A stretch of DNA of 37,249 bases from an uncultured delta proteobacterium (GTDB lineage Bacteria; Myxococcota_A; Polyangia; Polyangiales; JADJMO01): positions 1 through 37,249 of the forward strand of contig CAIXWQ010001339.1 in NCBI GenBank assembly GCA_903923175.1, given 5' to 3'. Positions within the stretch are counted from its first letter, which is position 1; every line of letters starts with the position of its first letter. Under the pieces are notes generated by a model, which had not been told where the DNA came from, searched no databases, and worked only from the letters and a program-made list of their open reading frames with translations. The translations under genes were made by a program, and so were the position numbers. Of this stretch, positions 22,693 to 31,506 are shown piece after piece.

Positions 22693-23919
22693 TCAGTTCA
22701 GCCAGATGAAGTAGCGGAGCTTGTGCTCGAGGCTCTCCTCGCCTCGCTCGATCTCCTGCGACATGCGCAAGAGGCGTCGCGGCAGCCCGGACGCCTTCAT
22801 GCGCGCGACGTAGGCCTCGCCGAAGAGGCTCTTCAAGGCGCCGTCCGGATCGCGATCGGCGTGATCGAGCGCGCGCTCCGACAGCGACAGGTCGCGCGGA
22901 TCGGAGAGCAGCCGGCCGACGTCGACGAAGCCGCTCGGCGTCACCTTCAGGTGCGCGCCCGAGAGCCGCACGAGCTCCGCGACGTCGAGCCCCTCGTTGC
23001 CGCGCACGAGGCTCCGCACGTCGGTGATCACCTCTCGCCAGGTCGCGTAGAGCGCCTCGTCGACCGGCATCGGCAGCGGGTGGCTCGCCTGCCGAGGGCT
23101 CGGGACCCACTCGCGATCGTCGTCGGTCTCCGCGAGGTACGCCTCGCGCGTACGATCGGCGTGGTCGAGCCCCTCGAGGAGGCGGCGCTTCGCGTCCCGC
23201 ACGCGCGAGGCGTCCTGCAGGTGCACGACGAGCTCGCCGCTTCGCCCGCCGCGCCCGCCGCGCGCGTCGATCACGAGCTCCTCGAAGCGATAGGCGAGCG
23301 CGAGATCGAGCGCGGCGCGCTGGAACGACACCATCGCGCGCGCCCAGTGGACGTCGCCGACGTCGAAGCGGAACGTCGGCGTCCTTCGCGCGTCGCCCTC
23401 GGGCAGCTCCTTGCCGTCGGCGCCTTGCTCGATCTGCAGCAGGCGCTCGTCGTGCGGCTCGATCGCGCCGCTCTGATCCCAGTCGACCTTCCAGCAGGCC
23501 ACGCAGAGCTCGAGCGCGAGCTCCGGCGCCTCGGCCGCGACGGCGAGATCCTCGTCGATGCGCGCGAGCGACTCCTCCGCCCGCTCCAGCTCGGCGCGCA
23601 GGCGCGGGCCGTCGAGATCGCGCCGCGCGCGGCCGCGGGCGAACAGCGCGCCGTACAGGTGCTGCGAGCTCTGGACGTAGCGCGCGATCGCGCGCACGAG
23701 GCGCGCGGTGGCGTTGCGGCCGTTGCGATCGATCGCCGCCGTCGATCGCGCCTCGGCGTCGGCGAAGCGGCCGGCGCGCAGATCGTCGGTCGCGGCGGTC
23801 GCCTCCTCGCGCTGCTTGGGAAGTGGCATCGAGCCGCCGCAGCCCGCGCCCGGCAGCGCGAGGGTCGCGAGGAGCACCATCACCGTCGCCGAGACCCGCG
23901 TGCGGAGTCGCCTCATCAT
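22693..23919 (-). CDS. lipoprotein with an EF-hand-like calcium loop, unknown function
   Basis: The 408-residue protein has a signal peptide ending in the lipobox L-P-G-A-G-C (Cys27). The body is mostly helical and rich in Arg, Glu and Asp. Residues 36-85 (A-T-D-D-L-R-A-G-R-F-A-D-A-E-A-R) read like a TPR-type helix pair. Residues 146-157 (D-W-D-Q-S-G-A-I-E-P-H-D) fit the EF-hand loop D-x-D-x-S/D-G-x-I with Asp at position 12. Two cysteines (139, 142) lie just before it. No family is recognised. ATG 23919 has a second ATG directly after it and no clear promoter box. It lies 120 bp downstream of the PFK-2 gene on the same strand. Confidence 0.75.
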   Translation of the reverse strand: MMRRLRTRVSATVMVLLATLALPGAGCGGSMPLPKQREEATAATDDLRAGRFADAEARSTAAIDRNGRNATARLVRAIARYVQSSQHLYGALFARGRARRDLDGPRLRAELERAEESLARIDEDLAVAAEAPELALELCVACWKVDWDQSGAIEPHDERLLQIEQGADGKELPEGDARRTPTFRFDVGDVHWARAMVSFQRAALDLALAYRFEELVIDARGGRGGRSGELVVHLQDASRVRDAKRRLLEGLDHADRTREAYLAETDDDREWVPSPRQASHPLPMPVDEALYATWREVITDVRSLVRGNEGLDVAELVRLSGAHLKVTPSGFVDVGRLLSDPRDLSLSERALDHADRDPDGALKSLFGEAYVARMKASGLPRRLLRMSQEIERGEESLEHKLRYFIWLN

Positions 23920-24039: not shown

Positions 24040-25317
24040 CTACGGGCTCGACATGAACTTGTGCGGCACGTCGACGCGTGGCCCGAGCGCGTGGCGGCGC
24101 TCCGTCGTCGCCGTCGGCCCCGATTGCAGCTCGATGACCGTGTGCAGCGGGATGTCGTGGAACGGAGAGGCCTCGGGCGCGAGCTCCATCAGGTAGCCGT
24201 AGAGGACGCGCGCGACGGCCTGGTGGCTCACCACGAAGAGCGGCGTGCGCAGGCGCTCGAGCTCCAGGATGACCGGCTCGAGCCGCTCGATCAGATCCTG
24301 GTACGACTCGCCGCGCGGGTAGCGGTAGCGGAACTTGTCGCGCGCGCGCGCCTCGGCCTCGGAGGCCATCGAGACTCGGACCTCGTCGTAGGTCATGCCG
24401 TCGCACACGCCGGCGTCGATCTCGTCGAGCGCGCGCCAGGCGACCTTCGTGGTCGGGAGCTCGCGCGCGGTCTCGATCGTGCGCCGGAGCGTGCTGGTCC
24501 AGACCGCGATCTCTCCGTGCGCGCGCGCCTGCTCGTCGTAGAAGCCGCGCAGGCGCTCGGCGTACTGCGCGCCGAGCCGCGTGATCGACGCGTCGCCGCC
24601 GATGCGGTGGTGCAGGTTCGACGTGCTCTGCCCGTGGCGCGTGAGCCAGATCGTGCGCGGCTGCGCGTGCACGTTCAGCAGGAAGTAGACGAGGCGCGAC
24701 GGCAGGTAGCCCTCGATGCGGTGGAGCACCACGTCGCGGCCGAGATCGATGATCTTGATGTAGCGGAGCGCGTCCTCGTCGATCGGCTCGTAGGCGCGCT
24801 CGTACAGCGAGAGGCGCGCGCGGAAATCGCGCACGGCCTCCTCCGGGTCCTCCCCCTCGTAGTCGGGGCTCTCGAGCTTGGTCGCGCGGACGTTGGCCTC
24901 GACGATCGCCGGATCGTTGCAGATCGACTCGACGAAGATGACCTGGTGCCCCTCGCCCTCGAAGCGGCTCGCGATCGTGGCGCGCCGCTCGCGCGTCGTG
25001 TTGGTCGCGTCGTAGATGGCGACCGTCCCCTCGCCGCGCAGCCACTCGCACGCGTCGACGAGCGCCTCCTCGGCGACCTGCGCGCGCGCGGCGCTCCCCT
25101 CGCCGTCGGCGGGATCGAAGAACGACGCGCGCTGCCCCGCCCCGAGCCGCACGCGCCGGTACTGCCCGACGTTGAAGACCGCCGGGCTCTGCCCGCTCCA
25201 CGACAGGTAGCGTGACAGCTTGCGCGCGAGGTACGTCTTGCCGCGGGCCGGGAGCCCGACCATCGCGATCGCGAGCTTCTGGCGCGAGAGCCCGGTGCTC
25301 GCCGGCGAGCGCATCAT
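24040..25317 (-). CDS. bifunctional 6-phosphofructo-2-kinase / fructose-2,6-bisphosphatase (eukaryote-like)
   Basis: The 425 residues span both halves of the animal and fungal PFKFB enzyme. Kinase half: P-loop GLPARGKT at 21-28, VFNVGQYRR at 47-55, FFDPADGEG at 66-74, DATNTTRERR at 103-112 and ESICNDP at 130-136. Phosphatase half (histidine-phosphatase fold): RHGQS with His228, R-R-T-I-E-T-A, Glu299 in DEIDAGVCDGMTYDE, YRYPRGESY and His365 in V-V-S-H-Q-A-V-A-R. All the catalytic positions I know of are kept, so both synthesis and hydrolysis of fructose-2,6-bisphosphate are predicted. The metabolite is a eukaryotic glycolysis regulator with no established bacterial role. TATGCT lies 8 nt before ATG 25317; a second ATG follows at once. 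Orientation is divergent to the Lgt-like gene. Confidence 0.93.
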   Translation of the reverse strand: MMRSPASTGLSRQKLAIAMVGLPARGKTYLARKLSRYLSWSGQSPAVFNVGQYRRVRLGAGQRASFFDPADGEGSAARAQVAEEALVDACEWLRGEGTVAIYDATNTTRERRATIASRFEGEGHQVIFVESICNDPAIVEANVRATKLESPDYEGEDPEEAVRDFRARLSLYERAYEPIDEDALRYIKIIDLGRDVVLHRIEGYLPSRLVYFLLNVHAQPRTIWLTRHGQSTSNLHHRIGGDASITRLGAQYAERLRGFYDEQARAHGEIAVWTSTLRRTIETARELPTTKVAWRALDEIDAGVCDGMTYDEVRVSMASEAEARARDKFRYRYPRGESYQDLIERLEPVILELERLRTPLFVVSHQAVARVLYGYLMELAPEASPFHDIPLHTVIELQSGPTATTERRHALGPRVDVPHKFMSSP

Positions 25318-25325
25318 CGACCGCC

Positions 25326-25331
25326 AGCATA
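25326..25331 (-). promoter_or_regulatory. TATGCT box, putative leaderless -10 for the PFK-2 gene
   Basis: On the minus strand TATGCT ends 8 nt before ATG 25317 and no ribosome site is visible. It forms a divergent pair with the TACGAT box at 25357-25362. Confidence 0.45.
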
Positions 25332-25356
25332 GCGGGCGCGCCCGCCGTTCCGCGAT

Positions 25357-25362
25357 TACGAT
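25357..25362 (+). promoter_or_regulatory. TACGAT box, putative leaderless -10 for the Lgt-like gene
   Basis: TACGAT ends 8 nt before ATG 25371 and no ribosome site is visible. Confidence 0.5.
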
Positions 25363-25370
25363 CCGCGGCG

Positions 25371-26231
25371 ATGCGCAGGACGGTGATCGCGCTGCTCGCG
25401 CGCTGGCTCGGCGACGCCGCTGGCTGGCTCGTCCCCGGCTACGCGGCGATGCTCGCGATCGGCGCGCTGCTCGGCTCGGTCGTGGTGGTCGAGGCGGCCG
25501 CGCGCGCGGGCTACGCGCGCCGGCGCTCGCTCGAGGTCCTGATGGTCGCGTACGTCGGCGGGCTGCTCGGCGCGGCGTGCGTCCCGCTCGGGCAGGCGAT
25601 CGCGCACGCGCTCGCCGACGGCCGCTTCGTCGCGCGCTCTGGGCTCGCGGCCTACGGCGGGCTGCTCGGCGGCACGCTCGCGTCGATGGCGATACTGCGC
25701 CGGCTGAGGCTCCCCGTGCTGCCGTTCCTCGACGCCGGCGCGCCGGCCCTCGGCCTCGGCTATTTCTTCGCGCGCCTCGGCTGCTTCCTCGCCGGCTGCG
25801 ACTACGGCCGGCCGACCGCCTCGGCCTTCGGCGTGCGCTTCCCGCAGGGGAGCGCCGCGTGGGTCGATCACGTCGAGCGCGGGCTCGTGCCGCCCGACGC
25901 GCGCGCCTCGCTGCCGGTGCACCCGACGCAGCTCTACCTCGCGTTCCTGGGGCTCGCGCTCTTCGTCGCGATCTCGCGCCTCCGCGCGCCGCCGTCGCCC
26001 GTGCCGCCCGTGTCCGCGCCCGCGCGCGACGGCGCGCGCATCAGCGCCTTCTTCGCCGCCTACGCGGTCGGGCGCTTCGCCCTCGAGTCGCTCCGCGGCG
26101 ACGCCTCGCGCGGCGCCATCGGTCCGCTCTCCACGTCACAGGCCATCGCCGTCGTGACGCTCGCGCTGCTCGGCGCCCTCTGGTCGGCGCGCCTGCTCCG
26201 CGTGATACGCTCGCGCGCGGCTCTCTCATGA
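25371..26231 (+). CDS. prolipoprotein diacylglyceryl transferase-like membrane protein (divergent Lgt)
   Basis: The protein has 286 residues with about seven hydrophobic segments. Lgt landmarks are G-G-L-L-G-G after the third helix, A-R-L-G-C-F-L-A-G-C-D-Y-G-R-P in the place of the R-x-G-N-F-x-N-G-E signature, H-P-T-Q-L-Y, and a late R-F-A-L-E-S-L-R. Lgt transfers diacylglycerol to the lipobox cysteine of prelipoproteins. The essential His of the E. coli F-H-G-G-L motif is Tyr here (A-Y-G-G-L), and Asn/Glu of the signature are Cys/Asp. It may therefore be a paralogue with another lipid or acceptor rather than the housekeeping enzyme. Its stop overlaps the next gene's start (ATGA). Confidence 0.78.
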   Translation: MRRTVIALLARWLGDAAGWLVPGYAAMLAIGALLGSVVVVEAAARAGYARRRSLEVLMVAYVGGLLGAACVPLGQAIAHALADGRFVARSGLAAYGGLLGGTLASMAILRRLRLPVLPFLDAGAPALGLGYFFARLGCFLAGCDYGRPTASAFGVRFPQGSAAWVDHVERGLVPPDARASLPVHPTQLYLAFLGLALFVAISRLRAPPSPVPPVSAPARDGARISAFFAAYAVGRFALESLRGDASRGAIGPLSTSQAIAVVTLALLGALWSARLLRVIRSRAALS

Positions 26232-27895: not shown

Positions 27896-29107
27896 ATGTG
27901 CGACACGCTCGTCGTCGTCCGCGAGGGCGAGGTGCTCTTCGCGAAGAGCTCCGATCGCGATCCCAACGAGGCCCAGCTCCTCGAGTGGGTGGCGCGGCGT
28001 CGACACCTCGAGGCGAAGGTGCGCTGCACGCACGTCGAGATCCCGCAGGTGCGCGAGACGCACGCGGTGCTGCTCTCGCGCCCCTACTGGACCTGGGGGG
28101 CGGAGATCGGCGCCAACGAGCACGGCGTGGTGTGCGGCAACGAGACCGTGTTCACGAGGCACCGCGTGCCGCGCGCGGGGCTCACGGGGATGGATCTCGT
28201 GCGCCTCGCGCTCGAGCGCGGCGAGACGGCGGCGCGGGCCGTCGCGGTGCTCACCGACCTGCTCGACGCGCACGCGCAAGGGGGGCGCTGCGGGCTCGAG
28301 GACCCGTCGTTCCGCTACTTCTCGAGCTTCCTCGTCGCCGACGCGCGCGGCGCGTTCGTGGTCGAGACGGCCGGGTGCAACTGGGAGGTCGAGCGGATCG
28401 CGCGCGGCGTACGCACCCTCTCCAACGCGCTCTCGATCCGCGGCTTCGCCGAGGCGCACACGCCAGGCCCGCGCGGCGCGCTCCTGACGTGGGCCGCCGA
28501 GGCGCGCGCGCGCGCCGCGCGATCGCGCTCCCTCGCCGAGCAGGCGCGGGGCCCTGGCGATCTGTTCCGGGCGCTGCGCGATCACGGCGACGGGAACGTG
28601 GCGCCGCGCTACGGGCCGCTCACCGGCGCCATGGGCGGCCTCTGCATGCACCCCGGCGGGCTCGCGGCAGGCCAGCAGACGCAGGGCTCCTGGGTCGCCG
28701 CGCTGCGGGAGACCGGCGCGCGGCACTGGGTCACCGCCACCGCGTCGCCCTGCACCGCCCTGTTCAAGCCGGTCGACGTGCTCGAGCCGCTCGATCTCGG
28801 CCCGGTCCCGACCGATCGCGCCGATCGCGCCGACCGCGCCTCGCTCTATTGGCGGCACGAGGCGCTGCAGCGCCGCGTCGCGCGCAATCCGCAGGCGTAC
28901 CTGCCGCTCTTCGCCGGCGAGCGCGACGATCTCGAGGCGCGCTGGCTCTCGGCGCCGCCGATCCCTCGCGAGGCGTTCGACGAAGGGGATCGCCGCCTCG
29001 CCGACTGGACGGCTCGGCTGCAGACCCTCGACGCGCGTGACACGCGCCCGCCGTGGGCTCGCCTGCACGCCCGGATCCGCGCTCGGAGGGCCGGAATTCC
29101 GGCCTGA
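27896..29107 (+). CDS. secernin-like peptidase (C69 family, Ntn hydrolase)
   Basis: The protein has 403 residues. It begins Met-Cys-Asp-Thr, so removal of Met exposes Cys2, the expected catalytic N-terminal nucleophile of C69/secernin enzymes. The next blocks are characteristic of secernins: F-A-K-S-S-D-R-D-P-N-E, C-T-H-V-E-I-P-Q-V, H-A-V-L-L-S-R-P-Y-W-T-W-G-A-E and G-A-N-E-H-G-V-V-C-G-N-E. The C-terminal 100 residues are Arg-rich and less conserved. Bacterial C69 members are dipeptidases; the role of secernins is poorly defined. There is no signal peptide. The fixed Met-Cys start makes ATG 27896 secure. Confidence 0.9.
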   Translation: MCDTLVVVREGEVLFAKSSDRDPNEAQLLEWVARRRHLEAKVRCTHVEIPQVRETHAVLLSRPYWTWGAEIGANEHGVVCGNETVFTRHRVPRAGLTGMDLVRLALERGETAARAVAVLTDLLDAHAQGGRCGLEDPSFRYFSSFLVADARGAFVVETAGCNWEVERIARGVRTLSNALSIRGFAEAHTPGPRGALLTWAAEARARAARSRSLAEQARGPGDLFRALRDHGDGNVAPRYGPLTGAMGGLCMHPGGLAAGQQTQGSWVAALRETGARHWVTATASPCTALFKPVDVLEPLDLGPVPTDRADRADRASLYWRHEALQRRVARNPQAYLPLFAGERDDLEARWLSAPPIPREAFDEGDRRLADWTARLQTLDARDTRPPWARLHARIRARRAGIPA

Positions 29108-29140: not shown

Positions 29141-29164
29141 TCACGACGTGTCACGGTGGATCAC
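29141..29164. promoter_or_regulatory. three TCAC direct repeats at exact 10-bp spacing before a hydrolase gene
   Basis: TCAC occurs at 29141, 29151 and 29161, so all copies face the same side of the helix. The last one directly abuts ATG 29165. CACG-A-CGTG (29142-29150) is also a short dyad. A TTGACA lies just upstream (29128-29133) but has no matching -10. Possible activator or repressor site. Confidence 0.3.
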
Positions 29165-30310
29165 ATGGAAGCACGCACCGGGCTGATGCGCGTGGGTGAG
29201 AGCGACCTGCACTGGACCGAGCTCGGCGAGGGGCGGCCGCTCGTCCTCCTCCACGGCCTCTGCGATTCGCACCTGACGTGGAGCCGGCTCGCCCCGCGCC
29301 TCGCCGAGAGGCGCCGCGTACTGATGCTCGATCTCCCCGGCCACGGGCTCTCCGGGCGCCCGGACGCCAGCTACGCGCTCGACTGGCACGCGCGCACCGT
29401 GGCCGCGTGGCTCGACGCGCTCGGCCTCGACGAGATCGATCTCGTGGGGCACTCGTACGGCGGCGGCGTCGCGCAGTGGCTCGTGCTGCTGCGCCACGAT
29501 CGCATCCGGCGCCTCGGGCTGGTGGCCGCGGGCGGCCTCGGTCGCGAGGTCTCGCCAGAGCTGCGCGCGGCGGCGCTGACCGGCGCGCTGAACCACGCGG
29601 ATCCGGTGCTCGGCATCGGCACGCACTTCGGCTTCCACGCGGCGGGCGGCGATTTCGACGCGCGCGAGATGGCGATGCTGCGCTGGATGAACGGCAAGCC
29701 CGGCACCGGCCGCGCGTTCGCGCGCACCGTCGACGACGTCATCGACTGGCGCGGCCAGAAGCGCGGGCTGCTCGACCGCGTGCACGAGGTCGCCGCGCTC
29801 CCGCCGACCGCGCTGTTCTGGGGCGATCGCGATCGCGTCATCCCGGTCAAGCACGGCATCGAGACCGCCCGCGTGATGGAGGGGGCCACGCTCGTCCGCT
29901 ACTCGGGCGTCGGCCATTTCCCGCACCGGCAGCGCGCCGAGCACATGGCCCGCGCGCTCGGGGCGTTCATCGACGCCGACACGCTGCCGCGCCCGTTCGT
30001 GCGCCGCTGGCTCGCGGTGCCCGTCGAGGTGCGCCGCGTCGGCTGGCTCACGCGCGCGATCCGCGCGATCCGCGCGACCGGGCGCTCGCTGGCCCGCGCG
30101 CTGAAGCGCTCCTCCGCCGCGACGCGGCGCGCCCAGAAGCCGGAGGAGCACGCCGCGGCGCTCGCCGTCGCGGGCGTGGACACCGCGAACGAGGCCGCCG
30201 AAGCCGCCGAAGCCGCCGCCGAGGCCGCAGCCACGAACGACGCCGAAGGCGCCGCCGGAACCGACGCGGCCGTCCTCTCTGCGGCACCGGCTGAGCGCCA
30301 AGCCACGTAA
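29165..30310 (+). CDS. alpha/beta hydrolase with an Ala/Glu-rich C-terminal tail (second of three)
   Basis: The protein has 381 residues from ATG 29165. The oxyanion region is L-V-L-L-H-G-L-C-D-S-H, the nucleophile is Ser97 in G-H-S-Y-G-G-G, the acid is probably Asp223 in W-G-D-R-D-R-V-I-P, and the base is His251 in G-V-G-H-F-P-H. After the fold ends (about 275) comes a basic segment with an R-A-I-R-A-I-R-A-T repeat, then a tail of E-A-A-E-A-A-E-A-A-A-E repeats and a final Ala/Asp/Glu stretch. That tail is not part of the enzyme and may mediate membrane or protein contact. GGTGGA precedes the ATG by 4 nt; an in-frame GTG at 29156 is the alternative. Confidence 0.83.
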   Translation: MEARTGLMRVGESDLHWTELGEGRPLVLLHGLCDSHLTWSRLAPRLAERRRVLMLDLPGHGLSGRPDASYALDWHARTVAAWLDALGLDEIDLVGHSYGGGVAQWLVLLRHDRIRRLGLVAAGGLGREVSPELRAAALTGALNHADPVLGIGTHFGFHAAGGDFDAREMAMLRWMNGKPGTGRAFARTVDDVIDWRGQKRGLLDRVHEVAALPPTALFWGDRDRVIPVKHGIETARVMEGATLVRYSGVGHFPHRQRAEHMARALGAFIDADTLPRPFVRRWLAVPVEVRRVGWLTRAIRAIRATGRSLARALKRSSAATRRAQKPEEHAAALAVAGVDTANEAAEAAEAAAEAAATNDAEGAAGTDAAVLSAAPAERQAT

Positions 30311-30324
30311 CATCCCTGCGCGGC

Positions 30325-31506
30325 ATGCCCCTCGAGCCCGCGCTCCGCGCCCGCTTCCAGAACCCCACGCCGCTCGCCGCCGGGCTCCGCGCGACGTTCG
30401 TCTTCGCGACCGGGCCGAGCGGCACCTACGCGGTGCGCCTGCGCGACGGCGTGGCGAAGGTCACGCGCGTGGAGCCCGGCGCCGAGCGCTCCGTGCGCGA
30501 CGCGAGCTGCACGATCACCGTCCCGGGGGCGGTGCTGAGCTCGATCCTCGCGGGCAAGCGCGCCGGGCTCGACTCCTTCCTCGACGGCTCGCTCACGGTG
30601 CGCGGCAACCTCGCGCTCGCGCTCCAGCTCGACGATCTCTTCGAGCACCCGCCGCGGCCGATCGCCTTTCCGCGCGCGCGCCGCATCGTCGCCCACGGCG
30701 TGGACACGTTCTACATCGAGGCGGGCGAGGGGTTCCCCGTGCTCTTCCTGCACGGCCTCGGCGCCACCAACTCGTCGATGCTGCCGTGCTTCGCCGGGCT
30801 CGCGGGGCAGTACCGCGTGATCGCGCCGGACAACCCCGGCTTCGGCGAGTCGGCCAAGCCGCTGCGCGCCTATCACCCGAAGTTCTTCGCGGAGTGGGTG
30901 GTCGCGCTCATGGACCGGCTCGGGCTCGAGCGCGCGCACCTCGTCGGCAACTCCATGGGCGGCAGGATCTCGCTCGAGGTCGCCCTCCGGTATCCGGATC
31001 GTGTCGGCAAGCTCGGGCTCCTCTGCCCCTCGATGGCCTTCCGCCGGCTCCGTCACGCGGTGCCGATCGTGAAGCTGCTGGCGCCCGAGCTCGCGCTCGC
31101 GGCGGCCGTGGTGCCGCGGGCGGTGGTCGCGAAGGTCCTGGACCTGCTCTTCCAGGATCCGCGCCGGATGCAGCCGAACCGCATGGACGCCGCGGTCGAC
31201 GAGTTCCTCCGCGTCTATCGCACCCCTCGCGGTCGCATCGCGTTCCTCTCGGCGACGCGGCAGATCTACCTGGAGGAGGCCTTCGGCGAGCACGGCTTCT
31301 GGGACCGGCTCCCCGCGCTCGCCCGCCCCTCGCTGTTCTTGTTCGGCGACTCCGATCTGCTCGTCCCCGACGCGTTCCTCAAGCACGTGCAGGACGCCGT
31401 CCCGGCCGCGCGCTGCGTGCGCCTGCACCAGTGCGGGCACGTGCCGCAGTTCGAGCATCCGGCGCTGACCAACGAGCTGCTGCTCGACTTCCTCCGCGAC
31501 GTCTGA
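30325..31506 (+). CDS. SCP2 lipid-binding domain fused to an alpha/beta hydrolase (third of three)
   Basis: The protein has 393 residues. Residues 1-108 are an SCP2-type sterol/lipid carrier fold (Y-A-V-R-L-R-D-G-V-A-K-V, then C-T-I-T-V-P-G-A-V-L-S-S-I-L-A-G and L-D-G-S-L-T-V-R-G-N-L-A-L-A). Residues 120-393 are a hydrolase: F-L-H-G-L-G-A-T, Ser210 in G-N-S-M-G-G, Asp344 in F-G-D-S-D-L-L-V-P and His372 in C-G-H-V-P-Q-F-E. The fusion suggests an enzyme that holds its own lipid substrate. The start lies 14 bp after the previous hydrolase stop. TAACAT ends 11 nt before the ATG and shares its TAA with that stop. No signal peptide is present. Confidence 0.85.
   Translation: MPLEPALRARFQNPTPLAAGLRATFVFATGPSGTYAVRLRDGVAKVTRVEPGAERSVRDASCTITVPGAVLSSILAGKRAGLDSFLDGSLTVRGNLALALQLDDLFEHPPRPIAFPRARRIVAHGVDTFYIEAGEGFPVLFLHGLGATNSSMLPCFAGLAGQYRVIAPDNPGFGESAKPLRAYHPKFFAEWVVALMDRLGLERAHLVGNSMGGRISLEVALRYPDRVGKLGLLCPSMAFRRLRHAVPIVKLLAPELALAAAVVPRAVVAKVLDLLFQDPRRMQPNRMDAAVDEFLRVYRTPRGRIAFLSATRQIYLEEAFGEHGFWDRLPALARPSLFLFGDSDLLVPDAFLKHVQDAVPAARCVRLHQCGHVPQFEHPALTNELLLDFLRDV

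Follow-up and report, generated by a model that had tools for sequence, protein, structure and literature searches.

The window, by which we mean the whole 37,249-nucleotide stretch of DNA that was analysed, carries at positions 24040 to 25317, read on the minus strand from a start codon at 25317, a pfkfb-like gene encoding a 425-residue protein, a fused 6-phosphofructo-2-kinase/fructose-2,6-bisphosphatase as judged from the open reading frame, Pfam and PDB matches and an AlphaFold2 model. An N-terminal 6PF2K kinase domain containing a P-loop (residues 9-220; 24658..25293, minus strand) and a C-terminal histidine-phosphatase (FBPase-2) domain (residues 223-399; 24121..24651, minus strand) occupy the same chain in one frame, the former scoring 253-255 bits over positions 8-223 of the 223 in its Pfam profile (E = 2e-75) and the latter 106-108 bits (His_Phos_1, E = 2.5e-30). 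When solved structures were searched, the top 12 matches were all PFKFB chains from human and rat reaching residues 10-398, with human PFKFB3 matched over residues 10-398 at 377 bits (E = 8e-112), and given E values of this order for both domains and for PFKFB3 the match is far beyond chance. The AlphaFold2 model, built from 30 homologous sequences, was confident, with a mean pLDDT of 88.6 and a pTM of 0.86. Stand-alone histidine phosphatases such as CobC and PspA have the same phosphatase fold and RHG chemistry, but the window protein differs from them by the 6PF2K fusion; identity as CobC (alpha-ribazole phosphatase) was considered and rejected, as TIGR03162 reached 74.3 bits against an NCBIfam equivalog cut-off of 162.9. 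Judged by its sequence, the window protein is predicted to have the PFKFB fold, and the gene product is a genuine PFKFB-type bifunctional enzyme of the known family.

An earlier, sequence-only reading had given exactly these coordinates, leaving the strand unstated, and had described both PFKFB halves and their motifs within the 425-residue frame, all of which we recovered. The P-loop GLPARGKT spans residues 21-28 (25234..25257, minus strand), with GLPARGK invariant and the final T present in 37/40; NVGQYRR follows at residues 49-55, and DATNTTRER at residues 103-111 (24985..25011, minus strand) contains the invariant D, T and R equivalent to D124, T126 and R132 of PFKFB3. In the phosphatase half the invariant RHG (residues 227-229; 24631..24639, minus strand) provides the phospho-accepting His228, and DEIDAG and SHQAVAR lie at residues 298-303 and 364-370. 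Glu299 (24421..24423, minus strand), the general acid of this half, and His365 (24223..24225, minus strand), its second catalytic histidine, are likewise invariant.

For the comparison of active sites we used the residue roles and numbering of human PFKFB3 and the rat liver enzyme, mapped through the alignment. The kinase positions for ATP and fructose-6-phosphate that match K47, R74, R75, D124, T126, R132, K168 and R189 show no variation in 39 bacterial proteins, nor does the C154 equivalent, and 38 of the 39 retain the equivalents of R98 and Y193. The phosphatase equivalents of R257, H258, N264, R307, E327, Y338, R352, K356 and H392 (rat liver numbers) are invariant in the same set, while the position equivalent to liver Gln393 (position 388) is Gln in 33/39, including the window protein, Asn in 5/39 and Leu in 1/39. 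The liver-type set of phosphatase catalytic and sugar-contact residues is complete in the window protein.

Compared with animal PFKFB1-4 (human PFKFB3, PDB 4d4j/2axn; rat testis enzyme, 1bif), the window protein has the same domain order and extent and the same catalytic and fructose-6-phosphate residues, with about 46% identity (386 aligned positions of human PFKFB3), but differs in its bacterial host and its short ends, with about 14 residues before the kinase core and about 25 after the phosphatase core. The long N- and C-terminal regulatory tails are absent from it; such extended tails are typical of many eukaryotic members of the family and do not define it. A second difference concerns human PFKFB3 in particular, which has Ser where the liver enzyme has the active-site Arg307, a substitution associated with the weakness of its phosphatase. 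The window protein keeps the arginine (Arg279; 24481..24483, minus strand), as do 39/39 bacterial sequences, and since Arg is present in all of them a working phosphatase half is to be expected in the window protein.

The genes surrounding pfkfb in the window are of varied kinds. Downstream by 120 bp lies a gene for a putative lipoprotein of 408 residues (22693..23919, minus strand) that had no Pfam match and showed no link to pfkfb in other families. On the other side, a divergent intergenic region of 53 bp (25318..25370) separates the start codon of pfkfb from that of an Lgt-like gene (25371..26231, plus strand) of the prolipoprotein diacylglyceryl transferase family, whose product falls far under the NCBIfam equivalog cut-offs, passing none, and is probably a divergent Lgt paralogue. 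Further along the plus strand, a 403-residue protein (27896-29107) matched nothing but the AAT acyl-transferase family, and that weakly and below threshold at 20 bits, and the second of two adjacent hydrolase genes (29156-30310 and 30325-31506) encodes an SCP2 sterol-carrier-like N terminus fused to an alpha/beta hydrolase. Neither these genes nor the ABC export genes that are also among the neighbours gave a metabolic hint, as the sequence-only reading had said; that statement holds for the window and fails for its relatives, in which a phosphofructokinase adjacent in some of them and the co-occurrence of a class I fructose-1,6-bisphosphatase (FBPase) both offer one.

The enzymes on which fructose-2,6-bisphosphate (F2,6BP) might act are present in the source genome, which contains one pfkfb, one class I FBPase and three phosphofructokinases (PFKs), with no match to GlpX. 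The PFKs are of three kinds occurring together: a bacterial ATP-type enzyme (L013), a second (L014, 1276-2631) nearest the trypanosome ATP-PFK (334 bits to 2hig), and a PPi-type enzyme (L015) in which GGDD replaces GGDG (GGDDT) and whose nearest PDB entry, at 357 bits, is 9dqm, named PFP 1. The source genome therefore has every component that a plant-like F2,6BP circuit would need, although the genes are unclustered. F2,6BP activates plant PPi-PFK (PMC12203962), and the same enzyme set on which F2,6BP control of PPi-PFK and cytosolic FBPase rests in plants occurs in the source genome; the likeness is one of enzyme set, and the bacterial regulation is putative.

We surveyed a sample of 379 genomes from the phylum Myxococcota, calling as carriers those in which 6PF2K scored above the cut-off of that family. 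The gene was found in 84 of them (two as short fragments), distributed over 13 bacterial families. No pfkfb neighbourhood was conserved across families of the phylum, gene order being kept among close relatives only. Within family f25, however, 6 of the 9 carrier genomes, belonging to genera g76 and g104, have a PFK gene divergently adjacent to pfkfb, the first matched bases of the two lying 91-293 bp apart. Between the two genera this pair represents the sole common genes within the approximately 8 kb compared on each side. Five of the six paired PFKs have the PPi-type motif GGDDT (L106, 7980-9215; L107, 8291-9475; L108, 5975-7120; L109, 8385-9566; L110, 4458-5678), and the sixth has the ATP-type GGDGT (L083, 8914-10131), so that the phosphate donor may have switched with the pairing kept. 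The conserved pair is good evidence of a functional link, and may trace to one ancestral event. The pairing is confined to this one family, and PPi-type PFK showed no association with pfkfb phylum-wide (25 of 84 carriers against 94 of 295 non-carriers), which rules it out as a general partner and makes it at most a lineage-specific one.

Class I FBPase, the target of F2,6BP inhibition in eukaryotes (PMC9721465), was present in 77 of the 84 carriers and 126 of the 295 non-carriers (Fisher p = 4e-17; family-stratified one-sided p = 0.002), and GlpX, the unrelated class II enzyme, in 1 of 84 and 66 of 295, respectively; we treat these associations as leads and not as proof, given that the genomes are non-independent and some are incomplete, and that the FBPase I link is partly phylogenetic. 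Across the phylum the two FBPase classes are nearly complementary. Several of the carriers that lack class I FBPase are incomplete genomes, and three are at least 95% complete. The correspondence is close in families that seldom carry the gene: in family f29 both pfkfb carriers are among the 3 class I FBPase genomes of 29, and in f41 both are among the 3 of 11; the carrier genus of f41 also has class I FBPase, which most others in that family lack. The class I FBPases of f25, f29 and f41 (L091-L105) form a distinct branch with 100% SH-aLRT, matching the way in which the three families come together in the pfkfb tree and reflecting either shared inheritance or joint transfer.

We consider it likely that the window protein makes and breaks F2,6BP. 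The N-terminal half would transfer a phosphate from ATP to O2 of fructose-6-phosphate, forming F2,6BP, and the C-terminal half would remove the 2-phosphate via a phospho-His228 intermediate. The balance of the two activities would probably be set by metabolites; because the protein is close to a bare catalytic core without long tails, control of this kind is probable and phosphorylation control of the animal kind unlikely. The most likely effect of F2,6BP would be to restrain class I FBPase, a target for which we judge the case to be evenly balanced. In at least one family it would also control the divergently encoded PFK, usually PPi-dependent, as in the plant cytosol, and for f25 we lean slightly towards PFK as a target; the F2,6BP site of eukaryotic PFK stems from a gene duplication and bacterial PFKs are without it (PMC12203962), which counts against this target.

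The sequence-only reading had left open whether the protein works on F2,6BP or on another sugar phosphate, and the active-site residues favour the former. An enzyme of PFKFB fold acting on a different sugar phosphate, with F2,6BP as a side product, would fit the fact that most carriers have no metabolic neighbour beside the gene, and the Asn and Leu residues found at position 388 in six of the 39 sequences; however, the fructose-6-phosphate contacts vary little or not at all in either active site, and the pairing in f25 with an enzyme that uses fructose-6-phosphate, like the co-occurrence with class I FBPase, argues against it, and we regard it as improbable. We likewise find it quite improbable that only one half works in vivo, the protein serving, for example, as a constitutive F2,6BP phosphatase or kinase. 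Monofunctional derivatives of PFKFB are known among eukaryotes, but 39 bacterial sequences from many families show no change at the catalytic positions of either half, and all of these sequences have Arg where human PFKFB3 has Ser.

With the window protein read as a bifunctional F2,6BP enzyme, its high similarity to and co-linearity with the animal enzyme could point to a eukaryotic gene having recently entered the source lineage, and the sequence-only reading had offered transfer from a eukaryote as one possibility. As a recent event this found no support. In a gene tree with 14 labels (the 13 families plus human as the eukaryotic label), one of several quick trees that we report, there were 15 label changes, where the minimum is 13 and shuffled labels gave 53; quick trees of the kinase and phosphatase halves taken separately gave 16 changes each, and both track bacterial family. 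The window gene clusters in the full-length tree with the two other members of its own family. Two placements are odd, G120 (f37) falling within f2 and G121 (f2) near f57, and these look like transfer or paralogy. Human PFKFB3 is roughly equidistant from all of the bacterial sequences (44-50% identity), and in a phosphatase tree rooted with outside histidine phosphatases, where the outgroups were too distant and the eukaryotic side was represented by mammalian sequence only, it was not placed. Nor did the kinase half group with unrelated kinases, its 253 bits to 6PF2K comparing with 29 bits to the generic AAA_33 model and its own tree following family.

The composition of the gene, with 71% GC and 97% GC at third positions, is like that of its neighbours. 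No pfkfb copies were found in phages, plasmids or viral contigs, where the plasmid matches were to generic histidine phosphatases only, and a search of E. coli DNA gave no match. With presence in 84 of 379 genomes from 13 families and a tree that tracks family, a recent transfer is very improbable; the gene is rather a long-time resident of the Myxococcota, old in the phylum, inherited mainly vertically and lost repeatedly. Contamination by, or mis-assembly of, a eukaryotic contig can be effectively discounted even though the source MAG is fragmented into 1422 contigs: the composition is host-like, the frame is uninterrupted and bacterial genes lie on both sides; an independent MAG (L001) has a copy with 89% identity, flanked on one side by matching genes; and the gene is also present in relatives whose assemblies consist of one or two contigs (G178, G357 and G341).

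The long residence of pfkfb in the phylum bears on a larger proposal, namely that the Myxococcota have an ancient, native F2,6BP circuit in which PFKFB governs class I FBPase and PPi-PFK, and that eukaryotic PFKFB derived from such a bacterial gene and not the other way round. We hold this to be unlikely as a whole, while noting that a descent of this kind has also been put forward for sterol synthesis genes of this phylum (PMC12004948).

F2,6BP control of PFK has been described as apparently eukaryote-specific in a 2026 preprint (PMC12873801), and a passage of PMC9721465 that cites Rider et al. 2004 gives F2,6BP as occurring in almost all eukaryotes, with Desulfovibrio desulfuricans as the sole exception among bacteria. 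According to that passage, then, there is one other bacterial occurrence, in a lineage different from Myxococcota. PFK control has a precedent in myxobacteria, in that Pkn4 of Myxococcus xanthus regulates PFK, as mentioned in PMC2887360 with reference to Nariya and Inouye 2002; there the means is protein phosphorylation, in contrast to the sugar-bisphosphate signal proposed here. We found no paper on a myxobacterial PFKFB in the literature searched, although the surveys of Rider (2004) and of Michels and Rigden (2006) may mention bacterial homologues.

What we describe is therefore a known enzyme family, with which animals, fungi and plants form and degrade F2,6BP, found in a soil bacterium, where the F2,6BP signal is usually called absent, and a switch of glycolysis usually regarded as specific to eukaryotes probably works in these bacteria too. 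With a complete, conserved and phylum-old PFKFB in about one fifth of the sampled Myxococcota, tied to class I FBPase overall and to PFK in some of them, F2,6BP signalling in bacteria becomes open to direct test, and the Myxococcota can be named as a candidate group when asking where eukaryotic PFKFB came from.
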